From the NCBI GenBank assembly GCA_028877215.1, contig JAPPFJ010000033.1, positions 62,001-126,000 of the forward strand: a DNA stretch of 64,000 bases. The letters run 5' to 3'. A model generated the notes under the pieces. That model was not told the origin of the DNA and did not search any database. It saw only the letters and a program-made list of their open reading frames with translations. Position numbers and translations under genes: made by a program. The DNA comes from Gemmatimonadota bacterium. GTDB taxonomy: Bacteria; Latescibacterota; UBA2968; GCA-2709665. This document shows positions 8,905 through 54,859 of the stretch, one piece after another (within the stretch, counting starts at the first letter, position 1; each line of letters opens with the position of its first letter).

Positions 8905-8928
8905 ATTTCCTCCTGCCCGCGGTCCCAC

Positions 8929-11900
8929 TTACGGGCGGTCATCCACCCGCCACCGGCTGATCTCCCCCCGGTCCGTCGCCAGTACAACCGTTCCGTCCAC
9001 CGCCACGATGCAGGTCGGCCTCCCGGTCAATCCTCCGATAAGGACAACCCCTCCGTCCCCGTCCAGGACGGCGAGCGGCCCGTCTTCGCAGCCCGCCACC
9101 ACCCTCGCGCCGCTCTCGGCCCTAACTGCCGCCATCACCGCTGGCGGAGACGGCAGTCGCCTCGACCACACCTTCTCACATCGGTGATCGAGGGCGAGAA
9201 TCAGCCCGCCCGACAGCGCAGCGAGAAGCTCCTTACATCCGTCCCCATCCAGGTCGAAAACGTCGAAGTCCCGGACGTTGTTCGCCGGAATGCGCTGCCC
9301 AGGACCCAGGTGGACGTTGTGCAGGGCGCGCCCGTCCTGAGACCAGACCGTTACCCGGTTCCAGGTCCCGTTGATTTCGCTGACCACTTCCTTTCTGCCG
9401 TCACCGTCCAGATCCTCGTAGAAGATGTGCTTCCGGCTCATACAGGCCCATCCGCCGATACTCGTATGTCCGTCCGGCACGTCGTGGAAGGCGCGCTGCT
9501 TCGGGTCCAGTTCGCGATTGTTCACGACGGCCATCGCGTGCGAGTCCGTGGGCTGCCTTGCAATCAGCAGATCGATGCTGCCTTCGGGTCCGTCGATCAG
9601 TGCAAACCGGGAACCCGGCCCCCAGAATACCGGAAGCCGTTTCACCAGGTTCCCGTTTTCATCCAGAATCTCCAGCGTGCAGGCGCTGCCCACGAATGCC
9701 TGGCTCTTGCCGTCCAGAAAGACGCCGGAATGGAGTCCATGAACACCCGCGTGTCCCGGCGCCGTCTTAAACCAGTAGGGTTTCGCGGCCCTGAACACGG
9801 CCGGGTCTTCCTCGGAGACGAAGACCCATTTCCGGTCGCCGGAATCCGGATCGAACGCGATGACCTTTTCGTCCTCGCACCCGGCCAGAAGGAGGCCGTG
9901 TTCCCCCCACCAGTGGAGGAGACGGATGGGACCGTCCGCCGGCAGGGTCCGGAGCTTTTCTCCTTCCTGCGACAGCACGTGGACATTCCGGCCTTCGGCC
10001 GCACAGATCAGAGTTTTCCCGCCGGAATCCGCCGTGACCAAGTCCACCACGCCGCCACCCACAGGGGAAGCAAAAACCGGCGATATGGACGGGACATCCG
10101 GCATTGCGGGCGATGGCGCGGCTGCGGATTGCCGTCTGGCATCCCGGCCCTGCTCCAGAAGGCCCGAGAGCCGCGCCGTCACCCTTTCAAGCGCGGCCGC
10201 ATCCGGCGCCGCGCCGGTAACTGAATGTCTCCCAGCGGGGATTCGGATCGTCTCCGGACCCAGTCCATCCCCACGGTACACCGGTACGCTTCCGCCGACG
10301 CGCACGCCGCGCGGATCGGAAACGGTCAGCCGGATTTCGGTCTCTTCATCCGCGACCAGTTCCAGCGCGCCACTGTGAAAGTCCCAGTCGACCTGAACGG
10401 GCGCGCTTGCCCGGAACAGCGAGGCGCCCAGCGCCGCCCCGGTCAGGTTGACGCCGTGCAGATGGTCTCCGGCCAGCACAACCAGATCGCCGTTCAGCCC
10501 CTCGTATTCCCCCGCGACGGCCACGGCCGGCTCCGGGAGCGCCAGTGCCGCGGCGTTTTCGGCCAACCGCGCGCACGCCGTCCCGTCTCCTGCCAATAGC
10601 GAAAACCAGCATCTCCCGCTTCCCTTCTCCACCGCCCCCCGCCACAGCATGCGGGCCTGACTGTCCGCAACGGCGGTCTCTACCGGATCCGACATGCAGA
10701 TCCGGGCGACATCCCGGATGCGCGCGGCGCCGCCATCCGGCAGTGCCGCCCACGCGCCTTTCCCCTCCCAGAGGAACTCCACCTCCAGTTCCTCGCTGTC
10801 CGCCCGGAAATCCAGACGGTCGACAAACAGCGCGTACCGGCCGACGCGCTGCGCCAGCGTCCTGCGCCAGGCGCAGAACGCCGCCCTCGGTACCTCTGCC
10901 GCGACCACGGCGGTTCCCCCGACCACGTCCCGGTACTTGAGCGCGGAATCCATCGCCACCACCGGCTCCACCATCCCCTCGGAACGCGTCAACACCTGGT
11001 TCAGGTAGCCTTCCAGCAACGTCTCGCCATCCAGCCGGAGTTCCAGGACGACAAAGGTGTGATACGCGTTTCGGGACGCGCCGTTCATCCCCTTCACCAG
11101 GATGAAATCGCCGCTTGAATCCGCTGCGCTCCGAAAACTGCCGAACAGATACGATTCCTCCAGCGGCAGTCCGCTGTGACGGTCCCCCCACAGCGGCTCG
11201 GGGATGGGATGGATGGACCACTGGTTCACAAGATCCGTGGGCAGGCGGGGCTCTATATCGTCTTCCGGCCAGAAAGACTGCCCGAGCCGGAAGATGTCCA
11301 GGTCCATCCCGGTCCGGCGCAGGTACTCGCGGTAACGGCCGTCACCCGTCAGATAGGCGGCCTTGTTGAGAAATCCGATGGACGCGGAATTCAGGGCCCA
11401 ATCGGGTTCCCGCCCCGAGGCGAGGATCTCCTGCCCGCGAAGCAGATTGGCCATCACGCCATTTTCAATGGGTTTACGGTCGCCGGTAAGCAGCATATAG
11501 CTCAGAACCGGGGCCATTCCCGTATTGTACCAGAACAGATTGTCGTGTTCCCCGTCCACCAGGGCGTGGTGATGCAGCGAAGCGAAATGCCATCTGGCGG
11601 CCTCCATGGATTGCTCCCAGAGCGCGCTGGGGTAGTGGCTGTTGAAGTAACGGCCGAGACAGTACAGCGAAATCGCGGACCACTGCCCATGCCGCGAACC
11701 CACGCTGTGCGGCGGGTCTCCGAATCCACTCGTGCCGCTACGCACGTTTTCAACGACCCGCCGCCTGGCGCCCTGGTCCTGCGCGTGGCCGAACTGTGCG
11801 GCGAACGCGTTGGTCACACGCAGGCGTTCATCGTCGGTAAACACGGGGCTTTCTTCAATCAGATCCCAGTACAGGATCATCATATGCGCGTTGTAGTGGT

Positions 11901-12645
11901 AGGGTCCGCTCAGCGGCTCGTCCTTGTTTTCGATCCGCTCTCCGTCGATTTCCGTGATCTCCGCCATCGCACGGTCGTCCGGGAAGGCCAGCCGGATGGC
12001 TTCGCGGGCGTGAAAGGCGTCTCCGGTCATGTAGTACATCGCCATTCGCTTGCTGATGCTGTTCCACCCGAAATACCCCACCGAACCGTACCCGGCGGAC
12101 GCCTCCCAGGTCTCGAATTCCCGGATGTCCTCCGGAACCTGGATTCCCCGCCCCAGCTCGATCTCCATCAGACGGCCCAGTGAGAGCCCGCGCTCCGCGG
12201 CATTCGCGTCCAATACCTTGCCCGCAAGCACGTCGGCAGCCGCTTCCACGCCCTCCGCATCGCTGCCGCCCACAAAGATCACATTGTGCCCGTTGCCGAA
12301 CGGATTGTGAAGCGACCGGACCTCGTACCCGCCCGGCCCCGGATAGCGCAGGTCCAACAGCGTGTAGTACTGGTTATAGAGCGATTCTATCGTTCGGTTG
12401 TCGGACCGGTTGCCCAGCACGATCAGATGCCCGGAGATGGGCACGGCTCCGGCCGCGGACAGGTCATCGTCAACGGGTACGAGCACGCCGGTCTTCGCCT
12501 GAATCGCCACCTGAACGCGATTCGCGGCCCCGGCGTAGCGTCCGTCTTCCGGAACCACGATCGTTGCGTTCGGCCGGCCGTTCCGGACCAGTTCAGTATC
12601 CAGATTCAGGTCCTTCAGTTCCGTGTACACCGGTGGAATACGCAT
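8929..12645 (-). CDS. Heparinase-like/propeller protein, divergent paralogue
   Basis: The 1238-residue protein has the same architecture as its downstream neighbour: an alpha/beta N-domain (ATIVVPEDGRYAGAANRVQV, LIVLGNRSDNRTIESLYNQY), a helical barrel, a beta-sandwich, and a propeller from ~900 with DLDGDGRKEVVSEINGTWNR and DLDGDGCKELLAALSGG. Sequence similarity to the neighbour is much lower than between 5308 and 33492. Where paralogues have the NHGHDDGN-type His motif, this protein reads NGASRNAYHTFVVLELRLDG (about residue 520). The canonical catalytic histidines are therefore not obvious. There is no signal peptide. The ATG at 12645 has GGGAGTGAT upstream. It may be an inactive partner or act on a different glycan. 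Confidence 0.8.
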   Translation of the reverse strand: MRIPPVYTELKDLNLDTELVRNGRPNATIVVPEDGRYAGAANRVQVAIQAKTGVLVPVDDDLSAAGAVPISGHLIVLGNRSDNRTIESLYNQYYTLLDLRYPGPGGYEVRSLHNPFGNGHNVIFVGGSDAEGVEAAADVLAGKVLDANAAERGLSLGRLMEIELGRGIQVPEDIREFETWEASAGYGSVGYFGWNSISKRMAMYYMTGDAFHAREAIRLAFPDDRAMAEITEIDGERIENKDEPLSGPYHYNAHMMILYWDLIEESPVFTDDERLRVTNAFAAQFGHAQDQGARRRVVENVRSGTSGFGDPPHSVGSRHGQWSAISLYCLGRYFNSHYPSALWEQSMEAARWHFASLHHHALVDGEHDNLFWYNTGMAPVLSYMLLTGDRKPIENGVMANLLRGQEILASGREPDWALNSASIGFLNKAAYLTGDGRYREYLRRTGMDLDIFRLGQSFWPEDDIEPRLPTDLVNQWSIHPIPEPLWGDRHSGLPLEESYLFGSFRSAADSSGDFILVKGMNGASRNAYHTFVVLELRLDGETLLEGYLNQVLTRSEGMVEPVVAMDSALKYRDVVGGTAVVAAEVPRAAFCAWRRTLAQRVGRYALFVDRLDFRADSEELEVEFLWEGKGAWAALPDGGAARIRDVARICMSDPVETAVADSQARMLWRGAVEKGSGRCWFSLLAGDGTACARLAENAAALALPEPAVAVAGEYEGLNGDLVVLAGDHLHGVNLTGAALGASLFRASAPVQVDWDFHSGALELVADEETEIRLTVSDPRGVRVGGSVPVYRGDGLGPETIRIPAGRHSVTGAAPDAAALERVTARLSGLLEQGRDARRQSAAAPSPAMPDVPSISPVFASPVGGGVVDLVTADSGGKTLICAAEGRNVHVLSQEGEKLRTLPADGPIRLLHWWGEHGLLLAGCEDEKVIAFDPDSGDRKWVFVSEEDPAVFRAAKPYWFKTAPGHAGVHGLHSGVFLDGKSQAFVGSACTLEILDENGNLVKRLPVFWGPGSRFALIDGPEGSIDLLIARQPTDSHAMAVVNNRELDPKQRAFHDVPDGHTSIGGWACMSRKHIFYEDLDGDGRKEVVSEINGTWNRVTVWSQDGRALHNVHLGPGQRIPANNVRDFDVFDLDGDGCKELLAALSGGLILALDHRCEKVWSRRLPSPPAVMAAVRAESGARVVAGCEDGPLAVLDGDGGVVLIGGLTGRPTCIVAVDGTVVLATDRGEISRWRVDDRP

Positions 12646-12697: not shown

Positions 12698-14665
12698 TCA
12701 ATACGCGTGTACGCCGTGACCCTGACCCGGGAAAAAGATCACGTCCAGCACGTAACCCAGGGGAACGGCCAACGCGTATCCGACGATGGTCCCGATAAAG
12801 AACGGGACGGTCCGCCGGTAGAGCAGCATGCCGCCGGTCTTGATCACGACAAACTTGCAGACCCATGCGGCAAAGATGCTGAAGGCCGCGTGCCTCGTCA
12901 TGCCGGTATAGCCAACCGCCAGCCCGGCCGGGTGCACCGGCCACCAGTTGAACCGGTATCGCAGGAACGCCAGCAGGGCCATCCCCGCGGCGCCGGCCGC
13001 AAAGAGGATGAACGACGCCGCGTGAACGGGGTCCGGGCTGCGCATGTGGCTCACGTATCCGTTCACGCTCGGCACGGTTCTCCGGAAGAGCGCGATACTG
13101 CCGAAATTGTACGCCCCGCCGGAATATCCCCAATAGAGCGTCAGGGCAACGGAAGTCGCGATGCTCGTCAGCAGGCCCAGCAGCACGACCCACCCCAGCC
13201 GCTTGCGGTGGCGCTCAACCCGTTCGGCCAGCTTTGCAATCTGCGCGAAGGCCGGCATGAACAATCCCATGTGGTCGTTTGCGAACACATTGGTAAACGC
13301 CATGGCAGTGAGCCCTTGCGCCGGAATGGATGCCGCGCCCGCGGTACCCAGAATCAACCCCTGGGCGCTCTGCGGCAAGTTGACATAGAGCAGACCGGTC
13401 TGCGCCACGATCCGCGCGAGACCCAGGTAACTGACGAACAGCAGCACGGTCAGCGCCGTGGCCAGAAGAAGCCCCATACCGGCCATCCGCAGCCAGCAGA
13501 TGACAAAAGCCACCCCCAGAACCAGGCCCCACACCGCCCATCGGTACCTCATCAGCTCCCCGGCGTCCTCCGCGCCGTCCGTTCGACCCAGCGCCCTGCG
13601 AACCACGCGCCTGAGGTGTCCCCGGGCCGTCCACAGCGCCAGGCCCACGTAGCACATCATCGCCCCGCCGCCCTGCCACGACACGTCTCCGCCGGAGAAT
13701 CCCGCGACGCCCAGTCCAATCCGGGCGAACGCCGCGATCTCCATAATGTAGAACAGATGAAACAGCCAGATGCTCAGCAGCAGGTCCAGCCCCGTCATGT
13801 ACGCGAACCCGATGGTATAGAAATTCAGGCTCACGTGGACCATCGAGTACTGCGTAAAGTACACCCACAACTGCTGGTGAAACAAACGGATCATCGGGAA
13901 TCCGTGTACGAAGGCGGGTACCAGGTTCCAGACCTTGATCGCCAGTGCGACCGACAATCCCGCGATGAACAGCCGGTTCCGCAACAGCCCCGCCCATTCG
14001 CCTCTGCCTGCGGCCCCCTCCGCCATGTCAGCGGCCACCGACGGAATGGGATAGGCCAGCCGTTCGTGCCCCGACCACTGCCGGTGAAGCAGTGCAACCG
14101 AACAGAACGAAACCAGCGCCATCCCGCCCAGCAGCGCCGTCCACCAGAAGAGGGGAACAGCCCATTCCCCCCAGGGAATCCCGTCACCGGGGGGAAGCCC
14201 CTCGAAGAGCCATCTCATGGCTCCCTGCGCGTTGGACGGCACCATCCATCCGGGCACGTGGGGCAGGAGGTACTCTCCCCATTGATTCTCCGGCGTGGCG
14301 AGATAATGCGGGATGGCCAGCATGCCGATCCAGGTCGTGGACAGACCGAACGTCGGCACCATACCCCCCGCCAAGCCCGCGCACAGCGCCACCAGGAGTT
14401 CAGGGCCGGACATCGCCAATCTGGGAGCGAACCGCCGAAGGACGGGAGTCGCCAGGACGAGGATCAGGAACGGAACGAACACGCCCATGGGGAAATGGGT
14501 CCGGTTCAGCCATGATCCCCGGATGATATAGAGCGAGTGCAGGCTCCAGAAATTGTGCAAGGCGGCAATTCCCAGGCCTACGCTCAGGGCGCGCGCCGAA
14601 ACCCCGCGTATCGCCAACCTGGTTCCGACTGCGTCCGCTTCGCGTTGCCCGGCAGGACTCGCCAT
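12698..14665 (-). CDS. Polytopic membrane protein, DUF6784/DUF6785-like (copy 1)
   Basis: The 655-residue protein has about 12-14 hydrophobic segments. It resembles the large multi-spanning proteins annotated DUF6785/DUF6784 in Planctomycetes and candidate phyla. No transport substrate is proven for that family, although its size and topology suggest a carrier of the oligopeptide-transporter type. Motifs shared with its paralogue at 19425-21389 are LATPENQWG, IPWGEWAVPLFWW, RYRFNWWPVHPAG and a glycine/histidine C-terminus (FPGQGHGVH). GAGGAAT lies nine bases before the ATG at 14665. It is 25 bases downstream of the M28/FtsX fusion and 52 bases upstream of a heparinase-like gene, so uptake of glycan breakdown products is a reasonable inference. 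Confidence 0.8.
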   Translation of the reverse strand: MASPAGQREADAVGTRLAIRGVSARALSVGLGIAALHNFWSLHSLYIIRGSWLNRTHFPMGVFVPFLILVLATPVLRRFAPRLAMSGPELLVALCAGLAGGMVPTFGLSTTWIGMLAIPHYLATPENQWGEYLLPHVPGWMVPSNAQGAMRWLFEGLPPGDGIPWGEWAVPLFWWTALLGGMALVSFCSVALLHRQWSGHERLAYPIPSVAADMAEGAAGRGEWAGLLRNRLFIAGLSVALAIKVWNLVPAFVHGFPMIRLFHQQLWVYFTQYSMVHVSLNFYTIGFAYMTGLDLLLSIWLFHLFYIMEIAAFARIGLGVAGFSGGDVSWQGGGAMMCYVGLALWTARGHLRRVVRRALGRTDGAEDAGELMRYRWAVWGLVLGVAFVICWLRMAGMGLLLATALTVLLFVSYLGLARIVAQTGLLYVNLPQSAQGLILGTAGAASIPAQGLTAMAFTNVFANDHMGLFMPAFAQIAKLAERVERHRKRLGWVVLLGLLTSIATSVALTLYWGYSGGAYNFGSIALFRRTVPSVNGYVSHMRSPDPVHAASFILFAAGAAGMALLAFLRYRFNWWPVHPAGLAVGYTGMTRHAAFSIFAAWVCKFVVIKTGGMLLYRRTVPFFIGTIVGYALAVPLGYVLDVIFFPGQGHGVHAY

Positions 14666-14690
14666 ACAACATATTCCTCAGCTGGTGCGT

Positions 14691-17600
14691 TCAGGACGCG
14701 ACTTCCCGGACAGGCGGCGTCTCCAGTTCCGCCTCGCCCTGCCGCGCATAGTCCGTCTTGGTATCCGGAGGCATTGTCTTCCATACCAGGAAGAGCTTGC
14801 GGAGGTCGTTCAGGAAACCCCTGTTCACGCGTTGCCACGAGTTCACATCTCCGCTCAGGCGATGGATACGGACCTCGATGCGGTATATATCGTGTTCTCC
14901 CGTGGGAATCGCAACCATCTGAACGTCCTGGCTGATGCCCAGATCGTATGGCGCCAGCCACATCCGCAGCGCGATCCTGTACCCCGTGCCGGCAGGAAGC
15001 GGATTGGACCCGAAACGCACGTCCCGCGAAACGAAGCGGCCCAGGGAACCCTCGCCGAACGACTCGAAACTCCGAAAGAGATAGGTGTACATCCCCAGGG
15101 CTTCCGATCCCGCCAGGGTAAACGGAAAGTCGAAAGTCCAGTCGTCCCCATCCGGATTCGGAAACTGCCACCGCCGCGTCACGTCCGGTACGGACATCTG
15201 TTCGGCCTTCCTGGCCGGATAGAGGGTCGACAGGAACACCGCCAGCATCACCAGCAGCGTTGAAGAAACGGCCGACAGGGAAGAGTAGTTCAACGACAGC
15301 CCGCCCAGCGCTCCCTGCTCGTACAGGACCAGCGCCAGCGCCTGGCCGATCAGATAGCCGAAAGCCGCTCCCAGCGTGGCGAACACGGCCGCTTCGGCCA
15401 GAAAGAGCGCGGATATGTGGCTTGGCGCCAGGCCGACTGCCGAGTAGACGCCGATTTCGCGGAATCTCTCATATACGGCGCCCATCATCGTATTCAGAAC
15501 GATGAGCGAGGCGATCACCAGCGGGATGAAGAGATTCGCGATACCGGAGAGGGAGGTGGTGCCAATGGAGCTGTATACGGTCACCTCGTCGTCGATCCCG
15601 ACGAACATCGTCAGCGCAACCCTCGACATGAAGTCTTCAATCTGCCGGCGGACGTCCTGGCTGGGATTGCCCTGGGCGTCTTTGAAATCGGTGATCGCGA
15701 TCGACCGGAGGGTGCCCCCTATTTCGATGACGAACTCGTACGGGAGCAGCGCCGTATTGCTTGTGTCCAGGTGAATGAACGCCTCGATCGGCTCAGCTCC
15801 CATCAGCCTCGGGTCCTGGCTCAGGTTGCGCCAGTCGCTCGTTCCGGCGGTCTCCATCGTCGTGTCGATGGGCGTCGGGCGTTCGTCATCCATATCCGCG
15901 AGCCTGTCCACGGCCCGGGAGTCCAGAATGCCGACGACGGCCAGCTCCACCCCCAACATACGCACCCGCGCCCTGCCGGCTTCCACGTCCGCGCCGGTGA
16001 TCCCAACGAGGTCCGCCAACTCGCCCGGCAGGATGACCGCGTGCCGTTCCCCCTCACGGAACCAGCGGCCGGCCGTCAGCAGCCGGTCCATCCCCAGCAC
16101 GTGCGGTTCCACCGGCGTCACGCCCAGCAACCCGTTCGCGAAACTCCGCCGTCCGCTTTCGGGTTCCTCAAAGTCGATATACGCCCGCTCGCCTCTCTTT
16201 TCTGAAATGTAAAACGCCCGGGGCGCAACCCGGGCGAAACCGCCGAAATGACTCTGGATGTACGTGAGCGCGGAGGGCTGCATTCCCCTCCAGTTCCGGT
16301 CTCTCACCAGCGCACCCTGGTATGGCGGACGGTTGTCCCTGGGCAACTTGTAGAAGCGCAGGTACGTCTGGACCGACGTAAACGAGAGCACCGTGAAGGT
16401 CAGCAAGGTCAGCGTGACCGCCGTGAGCCCGCTGCGCAGGGGGCGTTTTCGCAAATTCGATACGCCTAGCGTAAACGCCACGATCATCGCCGAGATCCGT
16501 CCCACGTCCTCCTCGTACACACCCGTTGCGGACTGCTTCATTCGTCTTACCTGTTCCGCGAACCTGGACACCACGATCACCATTGCCACCCCGCCCAGAC
16601 ACAGGATCACAAACGCGAGAAAGATGATGTACGGAGAACTGGACAGTTGAAACGCGGGATGCACCCACCGCAGGGCCAGGAACATGGCAATGAGAATCGC
16701 GGCGAATCCGACAATACGCCTCTGAACGTCGGGAAACCCGAAAAACAGCCGCTCGCAGAAGAACGAGAACGGCAGCAGCAGGACGAAATAGAAGATGACG
16801 CCCCGGACCGTGTCGTTGGCCGTCTCCTTCACCTCGGGGTAGCCGCGCGCCTCGAGCCCCCAGCCCTCCCTGGCCGATGCAATGAACCGGTCGTAACGCA
16901 GGTTTTTCAAGTGGCCTTCGGCTTCGAGCAGAGACGCGCGCGCGCGGTCGTGAAGCCGGGAAAGCCTCTGGTTTTCCACGCCGTACCGAGCCAGTTGCTT
17001 CATCCTGACGTCATCCACGATCCACATATCCCGTGCCGCGCGGTAGGAAGGCAGGGTAATCGCATTCCCGTCCGGTACGTACCCGGCTCCCATGGACCGG
17101 ATTACCGTCTCCGCGTTTACCTGCCGCGGCGCAACGGGATCGGACAACAGGTCTTCAGGAGCGTTGATGAGCAGGTACTTGATTCCGAAGAGCCCGCTGC
17201 TCATCAGGATCTTGATCCGTTCACCGGGCGGCGCGAATGCCACGGACGCCTGGGTGACCTTTCCCTCCTTCCGTCCCTGGTTGGCTACGTAACGAAATCC
17301 GTATTCTATCGGCTCGCTGTTGTCCCTTCCCAGCACCTTCATATGGTCGAGTACGGACAGATAGCTGGAATCCACAATCTCGAACAGGCTGAGCGACCGG
17401 CATCTGAACAGCACGCCCATCATCTCGTTGTCCCACCATCCGTATCCCTGAACCAGGGGGTACTTCCCGTTTTTTCCATCAGAACCGGCGCCGTCTATAC
17501 CCATGTCCGGCGCCGAGACAATCCGTCCCTCGGCGTCGAGCTCGTAAGCCAGAACCTGATTCGAAAAGCGGTTTCTGACAATGTCGAATTCAAACCGGCC

Positions 17601-19403
17601 GGTCTGTGCGACCACTTCCCTTGAACCGTACAACGCACCCCTTGACGCCGGCCCTTCGTAAATCGGGCCTTTGGTTGTCTGTGTGACCATCAGCGTCCTT
17701 ACGCCGGCCAGGCTACCCGGGCCCGGCTGCTTGTACGTAACCAGCGACCCCGGAACCGGCACCCTGGGAATCGCGAAGTCCACATCCCGATCGAACCAGA
17801 GAATCCGCCCGGACAGGCGGTGGCCGCGGTCCATCAGCCGAAGCTGGGTCTCGCGGAAAAAGCCCGGGTCGCTCCCCGCCCTGATCATCATTGCAGCCAC
17901 CGACCGCACCTGGTCGGTCAGGCGGCCGAAGGCCATGACCTCGGGTACATCCAGCGGCGTGTCGGTCCGGACGCGACCGTCGTACAGGGTCACCAGGGTC
18001 ATCGCCTCCTGACCGACGAATACGGCTGCCTCGCTCTCCAGGGCCAGCGGGACCGGCATATATGACGTCCAGGGCCGCTTGGCAGGGGCCACCACGTCCA
18101 CGTAGCGCTCTTCATCCGGAAAGAGCGCGCTGGTGTACTCGCGAAACCGGTGCGAATAGGGCGTCAGCAGGTTCTTCAGGTACTCGTCCGTCCCCTTGCG
18201 GGCGTTGTAGAAGGTCCCCATTGCAAATCCGCCAACCTGCCTGCTGCGGCTGGACAGGTCCAGCCCGACGAACAGGCTGAAATCGATTCGCTCGCCCTCG
18301 GGGATCCGGTCCCGGAAGTAATCGCTTCGGCGGGAATGTCTGAATAGGAAATCGTTGATTCCCGTCAGCCCCTCGAAGTGCGCCGACGTCGCAAGAAAGA
18401 GAAAGGAGTGTCTGGAACCGTGACGTTGCAGCGAACGGATCACCTCGAGCAGGGCGGCGGCTCCCGATGCGCTCTCGGCGCCGGGTGCGAGCGCGGGCAC
18501 CACGGACATGGCGTCATAGTAGGCGCCTACCACAATCAGCCGGTCTTTCCACCTGGCGCCCGTTCCTCCGGGTATGCGATCCTCCGAACCCGGCAGATAC
18601 CCCAGTACATTGGCCGACTGCACCGTCTTCCAGTCCATCCGGGCCGTGAGACGCACCCTGACGTCCCCGCGCTCAACTTCATTCAGAAGGCGATGCGCAT
18701 CCTCCCGGTTCACCCAGAACCGGGGCACGTTCACGGGCACCTCCAGAAACTTGTCCTCCGCCTCCCCGCGGGTCACGTTCCCGTCGTCGAAGAACAGAAT
18801 GGCCTTCGCGCCGAGGGTCATCGCGTTCAGGTAATTCTGTCCGCAGCCGAAATCCATCAACACGACGCTTCCGTCCACGACCGACCCGTTGAAATCCTTA
18901 AATTCACCGCGCCGTCCGTAGATCAGATGCCCCTCGACGCCTCCGGCCGGGAGCGTCGGCGTCCGGACGTCGTTCGGCCAGAGGCCATAGATGGGTATCT
19001 CCTCCCCGGTGGCAGTCACCTTCAGTACGCCGCCCCGGTCCACCGGCACGGTCACATCGAAAGTCTCGGTGGTGACCCGCTCCAGGCCCAGCGCCTCGAA
19101 CTGCGATCTGATGTAGTCCCGCGCCTGCCGTTCGCCGCCGTATCCCACCACGCGCGACGGCAACCGGGTCAGGGCCGCCACGTGGGAGCGCACGTCGTCT
19201 TCAGCGATCGCATCCACAATTCGCCGTACCGCCCGATCCGCGGCCGACAGGTCCCTCCGGACCTGCTCCGGTGGCGGCGACTGCCGGATATCAAGCGCAT
19301 CCCTGATCACGTCGGACACATTCTCGGGGTCGAATACCACCACGAGTGCGAGGACGCCAAGCGTCAACAGAATGAGCAGTGCCCTTTTGATTCCGTCGAT
19401 CAT
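14691..19403 (-). CDS. Giant fusion: degenerate M28 peptidase-like ectodomain plus FtsX/MacB permease
   Basis: The protein has 1570 residues. A signal anchor occupies residues 8-25. Residues ~55-450 form a PA domain inserted in an M28-type fold (VVGAYYDAMSV, LAPGAESASGAAALLEVIRS, SAHFEGLTG). The usual metal ligands GAHYD, PGADD and EE have become GAYYD, PGAES and HF. Three membrane segments follow at ~870-990. Then comes a complete FtsX-type permease: VSNLRKRPLRSGLTAVTLTL, a periplasmic MacB-like domain, and NLFIPLVIASLIVLNTMMGA with two further helices to ~1450. A soluble tail ends the protein. No ABC ATPase gene is in the window. It sits between two paralogous membrane proteins, with 21- and 25-base gaps. 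It is probably a non-catalytic binding or scaffolding protein of the envelope. Confidence 0.85.
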   Translation of the reverse strand: MIDGIKRALLILLTLGVLALVVVFDPENVSDVIRDALDIRQSPPPEQVRRDLSAADRAVRRIVDAIAEDDVRSHVAALTRLPSRVVGYGGERQARDYIRSQFEALGLERVTTETFDVTVPVDRGGVLKVTATGEEIPIYGLWPNDVRTPTLPAGGVEGHLIYGRRGEFKDFNGSVVDGSVVLMDFGCGQNYLNAMTLGAKAILFFDDGNVTRGEAEDKFLEVPVNVPRFWVNREDAHRLLNEVERGDVRVRLTARMDWKTVQSANVLGYLPGSEDRIPGGTGARWKDRLIVVGAYYDAMSVVPALAPGAESASGAAALLEVIRSLQRHGSRHSFLFLATSAHFEGLTGINDFLFRHSRRSDYFRDRIPEGERIDFSLFVGLDLSSRSRQVGGFAMGTFYNARKGTDEYLKNLLTPYSHRFREYTSALFPDEERYVDVVAPAKRPWTSYMPVPLALESEAAVFVGQEAMTLVTLYDGRVRTDTPLDVPEVMAFGRLTDQVRSVAAMMIRAGSDPGFFRETQLRLMDRGHRLSGRILWFDRDVDFAIPRVPVPGSLVTYKQPGPGSLAGVRTLMVTQTTKGPIYEGPASRGALYGSREVVAQTGRFEFDIVRNRFSNQVLAYELDAEGRIVSAPDMGIDGAGSDGKNGKYPLVQGYGWWDNEMMGVLFRCRSLSLFEIVDSSYLSVLDHMKVLGRDNSEPIEYGFRYVANQGRKEGKVTQASVAFAPPGERIKILMSSGLFGIKYLLINAPEDLLSDPVAPRQVNAETVIRSMGAGYVPDGNAITLPSYRAARDMWIVDDVRMKQLARYGVENQRLSRLHDRARASLLEAEGHLKNLRYDRFIASAREGWGLEARGYPEVKETANDTVRGVIFYFVLLLPFSFFCERLFFGFPDVQRRIVGFAAILIAMFLALRWVHPAFQLSSSPYIIFLAFVILCLGGVAMVIVVSRFAEQVRRMKQSATGVYEEDVGRISAMIVAFTLGVSNLRKRPLRSGLTAVTLTLLTFTVLSFTSVQTYLRFYKLPRDNRPPYQGALVRDRNWRGMQPSALTYIQSHFGGFARVAPRAFYISEKRGERAYIDFEEPESGRRSFANGLLGVTPVEPHVLGMDRLLTAGRWFREGERHAVILPGELADLVGITGADVEAGRARVRMLGVELAVVGILDSRAVDRLADMDDERPTPIDTTMETAGTSDWRNLSQDPRLMGAEPIEAFIHLDTSNTALLPYEFVIEIGGTLRSIAITDFKDAQGNPSQDVRRQIEDFMSRVALTMFVGIDDEVTVYSSIGTTSLSGIANLFIPLVIASLIVLNTMMGAVYERFREIGVYSAVGLAPSHISALFLAEAAVFATLGAAFGYLIGQALALVLYEQGALGGLSLNYSSLSAVSSTLLVMLAVFLSTLYPARKAEQMSVPDVTRRWQFPNPDGDDWTFDFPFTLAGSEALGMYTYLFRSFESFGEGSLGRFVSRDVRFGSNPLPAGTGYRIALRMWLAPYDLGISQDVQMVAIPTGEHDIYRIEVRIHRLSGDVNSWQRVNRGFLNDLRKLFLVWKTMPPDTKTDYARQGEAELETPPVREVAS

Positions 19404-19424
19404 CGTTCACCCTGACACTTCAGT

Positions 19425-21389
19425 CTATTCAATCCACGGGTGAATACTGTGTCCGGCTCCCGGGAACATGAACATATCCACGAGGAACGCCCCCGTTATC
19501 CCCAGAACGTGCCCCACAAGCAGGCCGAGGAAGAACGGCTGCGCCTGCCGAAAGAGCGAATTTCCGCCAACCCGCAGGATAACCGTCTTGCACGACCACG
19601 CCAGGAACAGCGTCAGCGCAAAATTCCGTACCAGGTCCGTGCCCATGATGGCGAACCCCACCGGGTGGATCGGCCACCAGGGAAACCGGTAGCGGAGGAA
19701 CGTGAGCACGACCATAACGGCGGCGCCGATACCAAAGAACATGATCCGGTTCCAGTCGACGTCGAACGGCTCCTTGATCTTGCTCACCGTATCCGGAAAA
19801 TTGTGAACGCCACCGCAGATGAAGCCGTGTCCGAAATTCTCGGCACCGCGCGTGTAGCCGAGATAGAGCGTCCCGATGATCACGACCAGGGTCGTCGCCA
19901 GGAAAGACAGGCCCACGGCCCAGAACAGGCGCCTACCGCGATCCCGGACCTGTTCTCCCACCTTGGCCACGTGCGACATCTGCGAGGTCGAATTCGCGTG
20001 GATCGGATACGAAAACAGGAGCGTGGTGAGGCTGGACGGCGACACGGCTTTGGCCCCCAGCAGATAGACCGAAAAGCTCTGTGCCGTCATCGGCCCCTGC
20101 ACGTACAGGAGGCCCGATTCGGCAATAATCCGCGCAACGCCGATGTAGAGGACAAACAGCATTGCCACCAGCGGAATGGCCATCTGCAAGTCCATGCCCG
20201 CCCGGTTCAGCCACACGACCGTGAATATGAATCCCACAAGAATGCCGACGACCGCCGTGCGGTACGACAACATCTCACGCGAATCGTCCACAGAAGCGTC
20301 CGACCGCCAGGCCTTCATCACAACGTCTTTCAGGTGGCGCCTGGCCATCCACAGACCGAACAACACGAAGACGCAGAACGCGCCAAGGCCCTGCCAGCTC
20401 GATGCAGCGTCATAGGAACCGTACCTGTCGCCGCGCCCGCCGATGCTGTAGCCCAGCCTGTTGAAGATGCCGAATTCAAGCACGAACACCGCGAAGAAGA
20501 ACCACACGCTGAACAGAACGTCCAGATTCGCGAAATAGGAAAACGCGAACGTAAACGGATCGATATAGCTGAACATCGGAGGCATGTCCCGCCCGAAGAA
20601 GGCGTACACCCGCCCCCGAACCGGCATCTCGGGAAAGGCGGGGGAGATCCAGGGCAGCGCGTTCCAGAAAATGAAGACGAACGCGAACCCCGCCCCGAAC
20701 CAGAACAGTTTTCCGCGGGCGAATTGCGGCCACAAACCGCCGGTTTCGGACCCGGAGGCCATCTCCACGATGGGCTCCAGGACCGGATACCGCAGCCGCT
20801 CGTGTTCCACCCATTGTTTCCGGAGTATCACCGAAAGCGACGCCGCGGCGAATGCCAGCACGCAGAACAGAAGCACCCACCAGAACATGGGAACGACCCA
20901 AGCTCCCCATGGAATCGCGCCCTGGCCGCCCGGAAGGCCGTTGAACAGAAGCGTAACCGCGCCGTCCACGTCGAGGGGCGCGACCCACGAAGGCAGGTGC
21001 GGGTGAAGCAGGGCGCCCCACTGGTTTTCCGGAGTGGCCAGGTAGTACGGAATGGTTATAAAGGCATACAGCGCCGCGATGGGCGCGCCGCCCATCAGCC
21101 CCATCGCGAATATCGTCAGGATCTCCGCGAGACTCAGCCCGGCGGACCGGACAACCCGCCTCAGGAAGGGATTCAGGACGAACAGGACGAGGAGGATTGC
21201 GATAAACAGGGCCGGCGAAAGAAATCCGGCCGTCACGCCGGACGACCGGATCACCCTGCTGGAAAAAATACCCCAGCCTTGAATGAACAGGGCCACGCCA
21301 AGCCCGATGGCGACCGCCCGCATGGTTACGCCGCGTCGTTCCAGGCCTGACGCCGCTTCAGGAATCGAATCCGGTTGCGCTTGCTGCAT
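19425..21389 (-). CDS. Polytopic membrane protein, DUF6784/DUF6785-like (copy 2)
   Basis: The 654-residue protein is a paralogue of 12698-14665, sharing LATPENQWG, the IPWG.W.VPMFWW block, RYRFPWWPIHPVG and a C-terminal FPGAGHSIHPW. About a dozen membrane segments are visible. GGAGTAGGAT precedes the ATG at 21389. The two copies bracket the M28/FtsX fusion, which suggests a three-gene transport or export unit. The copies are clearly diverged, so the duplication is old or they carry different ligands. Function is inferred only. Confidence 0.8.
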   Translation of the reverse strand: MQQAQPDSIPEAASGLERRGVTMRAVAIGLGVALFIQGWGIFSSRVIRSSGVTAGFLSPALFIAILLVLFVLNPFLRRVVRSAGLSLAEILTIFAMGLMGGAPIAALYAFITIPYYLATPENQWGALLHPHLPSWVAPLDVDGAVTLLFNGLPGGQGAIPWGAWVVPMFWWVLLFCVLAFAAASLSVILRKQWVEHERLRYPVLEPIVEMASGSETGGLWPQFARGKLFWFGAGFAFVFIFWNALPWISPAFPEMPVRGRVYAFFGRDMPPMFSYIDPFTFAFSYFANLDVLFSVWFFFAVFVLEFGIFNRLGYSIGGRGDRYGSYDAASSWQGLGAFCVFVLFGLWMARRHLKDVVMKAWRSDASVDDSREMLSYRTAVVGILVGFIFTVVWLNRAGMDLQMAIPLVAMLFVLYIGVARIIAESGLLYVQGPMTAQSFSVYLLGAKAVSPSSLTTLLFSYPIHANSTSQMSHVAKVGEQVRDRGRRLFWAVGLSFLATTLVVIIGTLYLGYTRGAENFGHGFICGGVHNFPDTVSKIKEPFDVDWNRIMFFGIGAAVMVVLTFLRYRFPWWPIHPVGFAIMGTDLVRNFALTLFLAWSCKTVILRVGGNSLFRQAQPFFLGLLVGHVLGITGAFLVDMFMFPGAGHSIHPWIE

Positions 21390-21609: not shown

Positions 21610-24600
21610 TCAGCCTCGCCGCGCAGGCCATTCGCTGCCGGAATTCGGAATCGAAATCCGATCGCCCGGTTTGAAGTCAAGGATTTCAAACCGGCTGCCC
21701 GGCCGGAGCCCTGCCACGGATTCGAGGCGGATCTTCTTAAACGCCAGCAGTTCGACGATCCGGGACGCGAAGGAGCCGTCCTCCGTACGCAGCAGCTTTC
21801 CCCTGTATTCGCCCTTGTCCCCGCTGTTGTTGAAGCCCCAGGCAAAAGCGAGCGGTACGTTGCAGAACAGAACGTCCGGGGGCTCGACTGAGGCAATCGT
21901 CCCTCTCGCAAGCCGGGGATCGCCGTGCTGCAGGAGGAGGCGGGCGTTATTCCCGTCCTCCGCGGCGACAACCCGATATGCGGAGCTGTGAGAGTACGGC
22001 GTTTCCGTTTCGCCTGATTTCACCCGGCAGAGGCGTCCCTCCAAGTCCATTCCGTCAGGGAGACACCGGTCGATCGTCACGGATTCTCCGTCGGCGTCCA
22101 GCTCCACGATCCGTGCGTCGAAACCATTCTGCGAGAGCCGCGTTTCGGCGTCGCCATACCGGAGGCGCGTCCCTTCCACAAGGTGAAGCGCCACCTCTCC
22201 ATCCCGTTCGCGAATGACTCCGAACCGTCCGTCGAGCGCGATCGGTACCTCATCGCCATCCCGGACTTCCATTCTGCCGCGCCTCGAAAACAGGTGCGTG
22301 TCCCGCCGGCCGTCCGCCAGTTCCACCCGCACGGCGGCGTTCCCTGCTTCCTCCTCCCGCGTAAGCACCCTTACGCCAGTCACGTTGCGCGAACCGGAAA
22401 ACGCTTCAAATACACTGACGAATATACTCTTCAGATCCTCGCCTTCCCTCCGGAAGATCAGACGACGGATCTGCTGGTCACCTCGCAGATCGGGACCCTT
22501 CGCAGCGACCAGGGTCGCCGAGGGGTCGGCGGGTAACAAGACTCCGTATTGAGTGTCACGCACGTCTCCAAATCGCCAGTGTGCGTATGCGTCGCGATCA
22601 AGCGGGGCGGTTCTGACGTCGTGAACGAACGCGTACCCGTTTCCAGGAGGCGGCAGCCATCCGTAGGGCAACGGGCTTCCGTCCGGCGCGGCCACACCCT
22701 GAATGCGATCGTTCGGCCCGATCCGTTCCCCCCAGCTATTACCAGGCGCGTTCGCCTCTTCGGAACCGTCCGCGGTCCCCAGCGCCGCCAGTGTCCAGAC
22801 CCCGGGGCGCGCCTCCGGAGACACACCCTCCAGCGAATAAGACCCCGAGTCCGCTTCGAAGAACCTGGGCCCGTTCATCGCGTAGTCGTGAATCCGGCCT
22901 CCGGCCACAATAAAAAGGTCAAGCGTATAGGACGTGTCCTCGTCAACGTCGCAGAAGATCAGCGCGCGGCGGTACTCGGTCGCGCCCTGGTGGATCCGCG
23001 ACAATGGCGCGGAATATTCCGCGACCTTGACATCGCCCAGGTCCTCGAAGGCGACCAGGTCCGCGCTCGGCACGAATTCGTAGCCCTGAGACGTGGGAAT
23101 GTCCTCGTCCACGGTCACCATCGCGTGGGAGATCGCCCGCATGCCCCATCCCTTGTGCACGTGTGAGCCGGCCAGCGCGTAACCCACGTCTTCGATGACC
23201 GTCCGGCCCTTGTCATACAGAAAAACCGCCAACTGGTCGTCCTGAGACAGCAGATTCGCGCCACCGCGCACAACCAGCGCCCGAGACCGGTCGCCCGTCC
23301 CGCTTCGCAGGACCACGACGCCCTTGTGGCCGGCGAACGAAGAGGCGGATTGTGGCTCGGCCCGATCTTCTCCGGCAGGTCCGGGTTCCGAATTGAACAG
23401 CGCCCACGTGCCGTTGCGGACGTTTTCCGCAGCACCATCCGACAGATCCAGCATCAGTTCCCTCGCCCTCAACCTTGTCTGCGCGTCGTCGCTCCTGACG
23501 TAGAGTCGCTCCAGTAGTGACCAGTGAGTGGGCATCACCTGGCGTTCCGACGGCGGCCGGTAACCGGGGAGCGCGTTCGTATTTCCATAAGAGGGGATGC
23601 GCCCGCACGCCCGGGTCAGCTCCGGGTATTCCAGGCACAAACGGACGAGGCGGGGGTGATCGAATGCGTTCTTCATCCCCACCAGCACATCGGCCTCAGG
23701 GAAATCTTCACCTGAGGGGTACTTGCCGGGAGCGTAGTGGTACAGCAATTCCGCTACGTCCTGCATCAGCGTACCGGAGAAATACGCGTACATCTCGGAG
23801 TTCTCGTAGTACCCCCCGTCCCTGCCGACCACATTATCCAGAAAGGCCCGGGAAGCGCTGCCCGCCCAGGTGATGAAATCGGGTCTGTCCGTCGCCAGTC
23901 CAATGGACAGCAGCGCCCGGAACCCGTCCAGTTCGTGATTCTGAAAATGCGTGAGATTCCCTCCGCGCAGATTGTACCCGCCACCTTCGGTCATCACGTA
24001 ATCTTCCAGCATGCCCTCGGCGATATTCCCCCGGATGCTGATGCGCCCGTCCCCCCGCGTGGGCGAATCCTCGTCCATTGCGGGCAGCCCGGAGATCAGG
24101 TCGTACGCCTGCATGTCCACGAAGCGCTGCCGGTTGACGTGGCACGTCTCGGCGTGCATGCGGCCCATCTCCCGCTCCTGGCCCTCGGGAATGTCCAATG
24201 GACCGATTGTCGTGGGCGCCAGTGTGGCCAACGCATCGTAAATCAACAGCGCCTTTTCGCCGAACCGGGTTTCGCCGGTAATCGCGTAGGCGAGGGCAAG
24301 ATTCAGCAGCGCGTTGTCCGTGGGGCCGCCGGACCCGTACGAATAGGTGCTGAGCATACTGACGATAAAGCTGTTCCACACGGGCACCGGCGCGAACCAT
24401 TTCCCCTCGTGGTAAAAGCCGTGTCCTTCGTCGCGAAACGGAGATCCCTTCCGGTTCTCGGGATACGCTCGCCCGCACGCCTCGCAAAAGGACCGCCCGG
24501 GCTGTGACACGTCGCACCGCCAGGCCGCCTTGCAGCAAGGACTTCCGTTGCGCCCGCTGCAGAAAATCGACCCCCGTTCCGGTACCAGCGCGTGTATCTC

Positions 24601-24771
24601 CTCGTCGGACACCCGGACCCACTTCTCCGCAACCGCGCTGATTTGCGCCCACTCCTTCGCGGCCCACGGCTGGGTACGGATATTTTCCCGCGCACGTCGA
24701 ATCGCTTCCACCGTGTACCAGATGGACCGTCCCGGCCGCGGGACCGGCGCCTTCGGATCGATAGACAACAT
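21610..24771 (-). CDS. Heparinase II/III-like protein with N-terminal zinc ribbon
   Basis: The 1053-residue protein has a cysteine cluster at residues 71-99 (CSGRNGSPCC, then C86 and CEACG at 96-100). This matches the zinc-ribbon insert seen in many heparinase-like proteins of Planctomycetes. A helical barrel (~110-440) and a long beta-sandwich follow (LLSQDDQLAVFLYDKGRTVI near 510, HVHKGWGMRAISHAMVTVD). A ~300-residue extra beta region completes the protein. No signal peptide is seen. The start is the ATG at 24771, eight bases after GGAGG, rather than the overlapping GTG at 24780. It lies 44 bases downstream of the Gfo/Idh/MocA gene. A polysaccharide lyase role is inferred. Confidence 0.8.
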   Translation of the reverse strand: MLSIDPKAPVPRPGRSIWYTVEAIRRARENIRTQPWAAKEWAQISAVAEKWVRVSDEEIHALVPERGSIFCSGRNGSPCCKAAWRCDVSQPGRSFCEACGRAYPENRKGSPFRDEGHGFYHEGKWFAPVPVWNSFIVSMLSTYSYGSGGPTDNALLNLALAYAITGETRFGEKALLIYDALATLAPTTIGPLDIPEGQEREMGRMHAETCHVNRQRFVDMQAYDLISGLPAMDEDSPTRGDGRISIRGNIAEGMLEDYVMTEGGGYNLRGGNLTHFQNHELDGFRALLSIGLATDRPDFITWAGSASRAFLDNVVGRDGGYYENSEMYAYFSGTLMQDVAELLYHYAPGKYPSGEDFPEADVLVGMKNAFDHPRLVRLCLEYPELTRACGRIPSYGNTNALPGYRPPSERQVMPTHWSLLERLYVRSDDAQTRLRARELMLDLSDGAAENVRNGTWALFNSEPGPAGEDRAEPQSASSFAGHKGVVVLRSGTGDRSRALVVRGGANLLSQDDQLAVFLYDKGRTVIEDVGYALAGSHVHKGWGMRAISHAMVTVDEDIPTSQGYEFVPSADLVAFEDLGDVKVAEYSAPLSRIHQGATEYRRALIFCDVDEDTSYTLDLFIVAGGRIHDYAMNGPRFFEADSGSYSLEGVSPEARPGVWTLAALGTADGSEEANAPGNSWGERIGPNDRIQGVAAPDGSPLPYGWLPPPGNGYAFVHDVRTAPLDRDAYAHWRFGDVRDTQYGVLLPADPSATLVAAKGPDLRGDQQIRRLIFRREGEDLKSIFVSVFEAFSGSRNVTGVRVLTREEEAGNAAVRVELADGRRDTHLFSRRGRMEVRDGDEVPIALDGRFGVIRERDGEVALHLVEGTRLRYGDAETRLSQNGFDARIVELDADGESVTIDRCLPDGMDLEGRLCRVKSGETETPYSHSSAYRVVAAEDGNNARLLLQHGDPRLARGTIASVEPPDVLFCNVPLAFAWGFNNSGDKGEYRGKLLRTEDGSFASRIVELLAFKKIRLESVAGLRPGSRFEILDFKPGDRISIPNSGSEWPARRG

Positions 24772-24815
24772 TGGCGTCACCTCCGAGCGTATTTCGGCGA
24801 TGTCCCAAGGGTCAC

Positions 24816-25862
24816 TTACGCGTCGTGAATGGGTATTGCCTTGCCGGTATTGGCCGCTTCTCTCGCCGCAAGCGCGATTCTCATGGCGAGTTTGCCGTCT
24901 TCACCCGTTGTCAGCGGCGTTTTTCCCTCTCGCACGCACCCGATGAAATGCTCGACTTCGGCCAACAGCGTTCCCTGGATGCCCCGTTCTCCCATCGGCC
25001 ACGTAACCGAATCGGCCACCTGGTAGCCGGCATCCGTAAACACCTTCAGGGGCTGGGACATGAAGTCCACGTGCAGGACGCCCCGTTCTCCCAGAATCTC
25101 GATGTTCCGGTCCACTCCATGGGGATAAGTACCTGGGTATGCGAAGGTCTCGTAGAGCGTCGCGATGGACCCGTTGGGGAACCTGAACGTCATCACCGCA
25201 CAATCCGTGAAGTCCTGATCTTTAAGGATGAGCTGCCCCATTTCGGCGTACACACGCTCGGGAGGCCCGCCCATCAGCCAGCAGATCATGTCGATATTGT
25301 GCGGTCCGGCATAGTTCAGGACCCCGCCGGTCTCGTCGTCGTTCACCCATGCCCTGCCTCTCAGCACGGAAAGCGGATGGCATCTCCTGGCGAGCATCAT
25401 CCTCGGCGTGCCGATCTCGCCGGCATCGATCCGCCTTTTGGCTTCCATACACGGGTGGCTGTACCGCTCGGTGAACCCGACCATCAGGATCACGCCGTTC
25501 TCACGCGTTTCCCGGATCATCCCTTCCGCCTCATCGGGAGACCGGCACATGGGCTTCTCGCACAGCACGTGTTTTTTCGCACGGGCGGCCAGGACCGTGT
25601 GCTCACAGTGAAATTCATCCGGCGTGGCGACAATTACCGCCCGGATGTCCGGGTCTCCCAACATGGCGTGATAGTCCGCAGTCCATCCGGATACCCCGCA
25701 GGATTCCGCCGCCGCCCGGGCCGACTCCTCGTTCCGGGTGCAGAACATCCGCACCTCGGCGCCGGCGCAGGACCGGATGGCCAGGGCGAAATTCTGCCCC
25801 GCCTTCCCACCGCCGATGATTCCAATCCCGACGTCGTCATCTGGGATGTCAACTCCCTGCAT
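24816..25862 (-). CDS. Gfo/Idh/MocA-family oxidoreductase (copy 1)
   Basis: The 348-residue protein has an N-terminal Rossmann fold with the dinucleotide-binding GIIGGGKAGQNFA, then VIVATPDEFHCEHT and the family's CEKPM. The C-terminal alpha/beta domain follows (GPHNIDMICWLMGG). These enzymes use NAD(P) to oxidise or epimerise sugars, sugar acids and inositols. Being next to heparinase-like genes suggests a role on released (un)saturated uronates or derivatives. The ATG at 25862 follows GGAGGAG. That ribosome site lies inside the end of the upstream gene, whose stop is one base away, so the two are probably translationally coupled. Confidence 0.88.
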   Translation of the reverse strand: MQGVDIPDDDVGIGIIGGGKAGQNFALAIRSCAGAEVRMFCTRNEESARAAAESCGVSGWTADYHAMLGDPDIRAVIVATPDEFHCEHTVLAARAKKHVLCEKPMCRSPDEAEGMIRETRENGVILMVGFTERYSHPCMEAKRRIDAGEIGTPRMMLARRCHPLSVLRGRAWVNDDETGGVLNYAGPHNIDMICWLMGGPPERVYAEMGQLILKDQDFTDCAVMTFRFPNGSIATLYETFAYPGTYPHGVDRNIEILGERGVLHVDFMSQPLKVFTDAGYQVADSVTWPMGERGIQGTLLAEVEHFIGCVREGKTPLTTGEDGKLAMRIALAAREAANTGKAIPIHDA

Positions 25863-25863
25863 A

Positions 25864-27852: not shown

Positions 27853-28034
27853 TTGGTACGATCCTTTCCACAAGCGTGTTGATCCCAATGTGGTAACATC
27901 AAGTGATGAGGAAACGTCTTGTCTGAAATTCGGATTGCTCCCGGCCCCAAACGGCTCTTTGGAAGACTACCGCGGAATTGGGGTCAATGCGTCATTTTAT
28001 CTCCTTTCCTTCTCTTCACGACAGATGGCAATTC

Positions 28035-51512: not shown

Positions 51513-51622
51513 CATATCCTCCTTAGCGTGTATAGATCGTCAATGAAAGAACCGCGTGGCGGCGGGAACCCGGGCAACCCTCCAGGTTCCCCGCCCATTC
51601 GAAGACTCAATTCCGGAATGGA

Positions 51623-54763: not shown

Positions 54764-54859
54764 TGCAGAACCTCCGTTTGTATTGACTCCCAGACTGTAT
54801 TGAGCCCTTCGCGCCCGATTCGGATTACAACTCCTCCTTTCCCGGGCGTTCAAGGCGCT

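Follow-up and report, generated by a model that had tools for sequence, protein, structure and literature searches.

Linkage of a pseudo-peptidase FtsX permease with predicted OPT-fold carriers in a glycan cluster of Latescibacterota

The type VII ATP-binding cassette (ABC) systems MacAB-TolC, LolCDE, FtsEX-EnvC, HrtBA and YbbAP-TesA (PMC5985334, PMC12646458) and the OPT/YSL carriers, here compared through barley YS1 (PMC9691689), are the described systems closest to a trio of genes found in a 64,000-nucleotide stretch of contig JAPPFJ010000033.1 (the window), which belongs to a Latescibacterota genome of 5.35 Mb in 37 contigs. In this trio, two proteins carrying DUF6785 and DUF6784 (Pfam E 1e-103 and 6e-100) flank a giant that joins an M28 aminopeptidase-fold domain and an FtsX module in one chain (M28-FtsX). 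The original prediction, made from the letters alone, placed three open reading frames here with gaps of only 21 and 25 bases, and this is exactly what the coordinates give (19403/19425 and 14665/14691, all three on the minus strand; Table 1). Our reading, to which we assign a probability of roughly 0.5, is that the trio represents the genus-specific form of a conserved inner-membrane unit in which OPT-superfamily carriers are combined with a type VII ABC permease bearing a periplasmic pseudo-aminopeptidase, and that this unit serves glycan uptake.

The resemblance to type VII ABC systems lies in the FtsX fold with its extracytoplasmic domain between transmembrane (TM) segments 1 and 2, in the coupling-helix motif, and in a putative LolD-like ATPase partner; YbbAP-TesA likewise pairs a type VII machine with a hydrolase-type partner. 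In contrast to the known systems, the M28-FtsX permease chain itself holds a peptidase-fold domain and is enlarged by a C-terminal domain and three additional TM segments, and its constant partner is a membrane carrier of predicted OPT fold. The N-terminal half of the molecule consists of a TM anchor, a PA plus M28 aminopeptidase-fold domain, a further periplasmic region and three TM segments, and the C-terminal half of a MacB/LolC-like FtsX module (four TM segments and an extracytoplasmic domain) followed by a C-terminal domain of ~150 residues. A hydropathy scan gave 1+3+4 strong TM segments for this protein and 11 for each DUF6785 protein, and Pfam recognized FtsX (1.9e-14) and Peptidase_M28 (8e-5), with PA (4e-4) falling slightly short of the cut-off. 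The FtsX part matched MacB, LolC and YtrF in profile searches. A structural model of residues 855-1562, with a predicted local distance difference test score (pLDDT) of 80 and a predicted TM score (pTM) of 0.49, retrieved MacB, LolCDE, HrtBA and YbbAP at a Foldseek probability of 1.00, FtsEX and BceAB being matched as well. In MacB-type permeases the coupling helix is the cytosolic contact with the ATPase. The corresponding motif, (E/D)RxxEI...G between TM2 and TM3 (E/D1312, R1313, E1316, I1317 and G1324), was retained in 80/80 aligned sequences. On model and motif, the FtsX half is predicted to be a type VII ABC permease of the MacB and LolCDE kind with an ATPase-contact motif. The C-terminal domain (14691-15130) gave a weak Bet v1/START-like fold match (probability 0.7-0.8, E 0.03-0.05), a modelled similarity that hints at a pocket for a hydrophobic ligand, facing the cytosol.

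The M28 part matched aminopeptidases by profile (2ek8, E 4e-19; YwaD, E 1e-14) and, more weakly, nicalin and the transferrin receptor. Its catalytic positions have diverged in a consistent manner. The general base Glu is replaced by His342 in 79/79 homologues; the first zinc-ligand His (aligned position 295) is Tyr or Phe in 65/79 and His in 14/79; the position of the bridging Asp is mostly Glu310; and the last zinc-ligand His is replaced by Asp481 in 78/80 rows of an alignment that is weak at this site. Asp382 was matched to the middle ligand by motif only. We rejected an active M28 peptidase as the default since the general base Glu and the canonical zinc ligands are not retained, and residue patterns make an ordinary di-zinc aminopeptidase unlikely. 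The invariant Tyr296 was also considered as the lost zinc ligand and rejected, the aligned ligand position being 295. Like nicalin and transferrin receptor 1, M28-FtsX thus presents a membrane-anchored PA and/or M28-fold ectodomain without the residues for peptidase activity; unlike them, it is fused to FtsX, and the replacement residues are themselves conserved in a pattern of their own.

A comparison of folds was required for DUF6785 because sequence profiles yielded no solved relative: profile searches of the PDB found no homologue of DUF6785 or of the OPT-like partner protein that takes the place of one DUF6785 in other genomes. The AlphaFold (AF2) model of the upstream DUF6785 protein (pLDDT 84.8, pTM 0.87) matched the barley YS1 structures 7wst (E 2e-7) and 7wsr (E 1e-6) in Foldseek searches of the PDB at probability 1.00 and TM scores of 0.60-0.67. 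These were the sole matches at E <= 0.001, the next having a probability of 0.25. DUF6785 also resembles OPT/YSL carriers in weak matches to the OPT profile PF03169, but differs from them in its ~11% identity, in giving no PF03169 match with hmmscan, and in having an ABC-type permease as genomic neighbour or fusion partner. All PF03169 matches examined in relatives and in genomes of other phyla proved to be DUF6785 or members of the downstream partner family. In the genome profile search DUF6785 fell below the curated cut-off, save for a marginal match in genome G072; some downstream partners exceeded the cut-off there but not with hmmscan. As hmmscan failed to confirm these matches, OPT membership is judged chiefly from the fold, and by this modelled structure DUF6785 is an OPT (yellow-stripe) fold protein and hence a carrier candidate.

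The OPT-like partner belongs to a family without a Pfam entry and was recognized in neighbourhood maps by homology to the proteins of loci L035 and L029. Its putative OPT nature follows from weak PF03169 matches and from a profile comparison in which it and DUF6785 align mutually at 93% probability, rather than from a fold of its own. In some genomes it is ~1070 residues long and carries PDZ-like domains (L115 4386-7610, L113 12071-15289). A literature search returned nothing on DUF6785 and no described function. The source genome (G000) contains 23 copies of it and most relatives at least 21; the expanded copies often accompany TonB receptors, PhyH-like, Gfo/Idh or probable lyase genes, and DUF6785 looks like one of the main carrier families of these bacteria.

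Neighbourhoods were mapped for 64 M28-FtsX loci of relatives and for 80 loci from a named genome collection, two overlapping sets of which the second spans Omnitrophota, Planctomycetota, Armatimonadetes and Zixibacteria-labelled metagenome-assembled genomes (MAGs). The source genome alone holds four full-length M28-FtsX genes. At 59/64 and 65/80 loci, DUF6785 or the OPT-like partner was either fused to M28-FtsX or encoded no more than 6 kb away on the same strand, the median gap being 49 bp; among the exceptions are several short contigs. The commonest order was DUF6785, M28-FtsX, OPT-like partner, and the arrangements M28FtsX-DUF-OPT, M28FtsX-OPT-DUF and OPT-DUF-M28FtsX also occurred. The original prediction had expected the three genes to recur as neighbours in related genomes. 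The exact sandwich of two DUF6785 genes around M28-FtsX was confined to the genus of the window (4/4 genomes), the different OPT-like family filling one slot elsewhere, whereas the wider M28-FtsX/OPT-like unit was kept; consequently, it is only in the narrow sense that the trio is not conserved.

In two loci (L108 and L110) M28-FtsX runs into a complete DUF6785 within one frame of 2088 residues. In G037, PF20581 scores 422 bits at the corresponding place of a 2129-residue frame, and frame lengths of 2101-2145 residues suggest the same fusion in five more genomes. A possible further fusion was seen in a Planctomycetota-labelled MAG (L220 from 8327), where the M28-FtsX match lies within a 3036-residue frame adjoining an OPT-like gene. 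Furthermore, 55 genomes contained all three families (M28-FtsX at full length, DUF6785 and OPT-like partner) and one set of 5 genomes lacked every one of them, so that 60/60 genomes agree. We infer from this linkage, natural fusion and co-occurrence that the dedicated transport complex proposed originally is supported. That these genes are mere bystanders co-transcribed in catabolic clusters, as the abundance of DUF6785 and its free association with catabolic genes might suggest, is very improbable in the face of fusion, linkage across phyla and matching presence and absence.

The absence of an ABC ATPase from the window had been noted from the start, and none was found among its open reading frames. 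The genome does encode a LolD-like ATPase, on contig C7 (L029), just upstream of tRNA-Phe and of a second locus of DUF6785, M28-FtsX and OPT-like partner; a search for a MacB/LolD-type ATPase elsewhere in the genome had been suggested originally. The identical arrangement was present in G001, G002, G003, G004 and G016, and the loci with the ATPase gene upstream were L029, L098, L107, L134 and L144. In G005, G015 and G020 the ATPase lies near a contig end and DUF6785-M28FtsX begins another contig (with tRNA-Phe first in G015 and G020), and in G007, G008, G010, G011 and G013 the two are roughly 5-20 kb apart. The tRNA-Phe gene between ATPase and DUF6785 (L029 5984-6059, L105, L106, L134) is a point at which several assemblies break. 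No other FtsX permease was found adjoining the LolD-like ATPase at these loci. In deeper lineages (L159, L163, L079), and also in L225 (Armatimonadetes), L194 and L203, a single operon unites M28-FtsX, OPT, a small FtsX of ~220 residues and the ATPase, mostly adding a PqqD-like gene and a gene of ~300 residues without assigned family. A separate conserved locus (L036 6028-9366 and L140-L145) encodes an S41 C-terminal processing peptidase, a small FtsX of ~230 residues and a LolD-like ATPase, the latter two being those found inside the M28-FtsX operon of deeper lineages.

The ATPase is 77-100% identical in 21/21 near relatives. Four of the genomes lacking M28-FtsX (G048, G052, G056, G059) gave best matches of 45-47% identity, and sampled carriers gave at least 56%, except G055, an 80%-complete genome. 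By these identities the LolD-like subfamily, whose gene in the source genome lies outside the window, tracks the M28-FtsX system. An ATP-independent role, in which M28-FtsX would serve OPT carriers as a chaperone or docking subunit, in the manner of nicalin in eukaryotes, and the FtsX module would no longer use an ATPase, can appeal to the adjacency of the ATPase at just 5/64 and 6/80 loci and to the kinship of the M28 domain with the nicalin and transferrin-receptor pseudo-peptidases. It is decidedly improbable given that the coupling-helix motif is universal in the alignment and that one specific ATPase clade follows the system.

The spacing of genes groups seven minus-strand genes, from Gfo/Idh (25883) through the 5308-8928 product, into an operon-like run in the order Gfo/Idh, probable lyase, DUF6785, M28-FtsX, DUF6785 and two beta-propeller proteins. 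The heparinase-like genes that had been placed directly downstream of the trio had no Pfam support as such, beta-propeller/FG-GAP domains being the only ones recognized there; a heparinase-like gene, with a sub-threshold Hepar_II_III_C match (E 0.018), also lies directly upstream. A canonical heparinase is not supported by Pfam curated cut-offs for any gene adjoining the trio. Genes with Hepar_II_III_C occur further away, at 30650-33388 and 37232-39574.

Table 1. Coordinates of the trio and of associated genes in the window
Feature	Length (residues)	Position	Strand	Basis
DUF6785/DUF6784 protein, upstream partner of M28-FtsX	654	19425-21389	-	Pfam, AF2 fold, co-inheritance
M28-FtsX giant	1570	14691-19403	-	Pfam, profile, fold, TM scan, residue conservation
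Second DUF6785/DUF6784 protein, downstream slot	655	12698-14665	-	Pfam, tree
Probable polysaccharide lyase	1056	21610-24780	-	Sub-threshold Hepar_II_III_C, E 0.018
Gfo/Idh/MocA sugar or inositol dehydrogenase	355	24816-25883	-	Pfam/NCBIfam
Protein with C-terminal FG-GAP/PQQ beta-propeller, probable secreted lyase-like enzyme	1238	8929-12645	-	
Protein of similar make-up to the 8929-12645 product, carrageenase-type beta-propeller	1206	5308-8928	-	
TonB-dependent receptor (CarboxypepD_reg + Plug), outer-membrane entry of cluster		51623-54853	-	
Cassette protein, no Pfam family	811	49080-51515	-	
PorV-like outer-membrane protein		48062-49042	-	

The two DUF6785 proteins of the trio, although rightly assigned to one family (DUF6785/DUF6784), are not sisters in the tree, which rules out a recent tandem duplication. 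The upstream protein pairs with the DUF6785 of an M28-FtsX locus in G021 (L071; 64-65% identity), and the downstream protein with a free-standing DUF6785 from a different lyase-like cluster (G000:C2:1743; 51% identity). From these separate affinities we conclude that a lyase cassette and a DUF6785/M28-FtsX unit were brought together in a glycan locus linked to TonB, and the second DUF6785 is probably a carrier that arrived with that cassette. Proteins similar to the 8929-12645 product adjoin another DUF6785 pair in L019. In L071 the genes for p284, TonB-dependent receptor, p811, PorV, DUF6785, aldo/keto reductase, an isomerase-like protein and M28-FtsX are consecutive; the window carries the same receptor cassette at 54860-48062, ~27 kb from the trio. 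Like polysaccharide utilization loci and starch utilization systems (PUL/SUS), the cluster brings together a TonB receptor, probable lyases, a dehydrogenase and an inner-membrane transporter. Unlike them, it has PorV-like and 811-residue proteins in its cassette and the predicted OPT-fold/M28-FtsX unit in the inner membrane; no SusD-like lipoprotein was present among the window genes scanned, a scan that was not a systematic search for SusD. Given the location of the trio within a TonB/lyase/Gfo-Idh cluster, the likely substrate is an oligosaccharide or a uronate-type breakdown product. Directly upstream of the seven-gene run, 25864-27888 encodes a 674-residue protein with SpoIVB peptidase S55 similarity and dockerin/EF-hand-like repeats. 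Far from the trio, 60873-62447 encodes a 524-residue Antibiotic_NAT (aminoglycoside 3-N-acetyltransferase family) protein.

We propose that a LolD-like ATPase supplied in trans would dock on M28-FtsX, either as a homodimer or together with the small FtsX, and that ATP-driven movement of the FtsX helices would be transmitted to the periplasmic M28-like domain. This domain may then capture substrate, or gate a bound OPT carrier, and pass the substrate on for uptake. Glycan would accordingly travel from the outer-membrane receptor past secreted lyases to OPT/M28-FtsX in the inner membrane, and on to the Gfo/Idh dehydrogenase. Several observations weigh against this scheme. The trio's own cluster is without an ATPase, and the pairing of ATPase and M28-FtsX is deduced from linkage and co-occurrence. 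Those OPT carriers whose structure is known work as proton symporters with no need of an ABC machine, and each genome has ~20 DUF6785 copies that stand apart from M28-FtsX. The model of the FtsX half has low global confidence. Finally, four of the five joint absences belong to one family and the fifth to a genome that is 67% complete, so that they amount to about one or two independent events.

Among alternative explanations, an envelope-biogenesis or trafficking machine deserves most attention. Here the type VII module would move a lipid, lipoprotein or modified peptide out of the inner membrane to the periplasm, in the way of LolCDE or YbbAP-TesA, and the OPT protein would be a flippase or exporter partner instead of an importer. 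The order-wide M28FtsX-OPT copy adjoins housekeeping-looking genes and no catabolic genes (L035, L089-L094), the ancestral operons contain PqqD-like and TPR genes, and LolCDE and YbbAP are among the best folds. We nevertheless hold this explanation to be unlikely, as the window copy and its G021 relative are both embedded in TonB-linked clusters with lyase or sugar-metabolism genes and OPT carriers of known function are importers (PMC9691689). The unit could alternatively be a nutrient sensor, M28-FtsX detecting periplasmic glycan as BceAB-type complexes detect peptides and signalling through FtsX while DUF6785 proteins transport alone. Although BceAB is indeed among the type VII fold matches and a pseudo-enzyme domain would be apt to bind a ligand without turning it over, the listed clusters of conserved neighbours include no recurrent regulator and direct fusion to an OPT-fold protein would be unusual for a sensor, which makes this possibility quite improbable.

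Under the reading we favour, the unit of OPT carrier and type VII permease appears to be undescribed as an ATP-assisted transport complex. Each half is exemplified by known systems, the type VII machines (PMC5985334, PMC12646458) and the OPT carriers (PMC9691689), and coupling of the two would constitute the new step. More tentatively, and with considerable doubt, it may define a hybrid class of transporters in which a type VII mechanotransmission machine (LolD-like ATPase, pseudo-peptidase FtsX and small FtsX) drives or gates an OPT-fold secondary carrier. Such a class would date back to the ancestors of several uncultured phyla, and in Latescibacterota it would have undergone repeated duplication and recruitment into clusters for nutrient use. 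The predicted OPT fold of DUF6785 provides a testable carrier candidate for a family with ~20 or more copies per genome. If the proposal is correct, linking or fusing a carrier to a type VII ABC permease would be a means of powering or gating uptake that is new, and nutrient transport would join export, division and lipid handling among the tasks of mechanotransmission ABC systems. The unit would, moreover, account in part for how Latescibacterota, known from uncultured genomes only, take up polysaccharide fragments.

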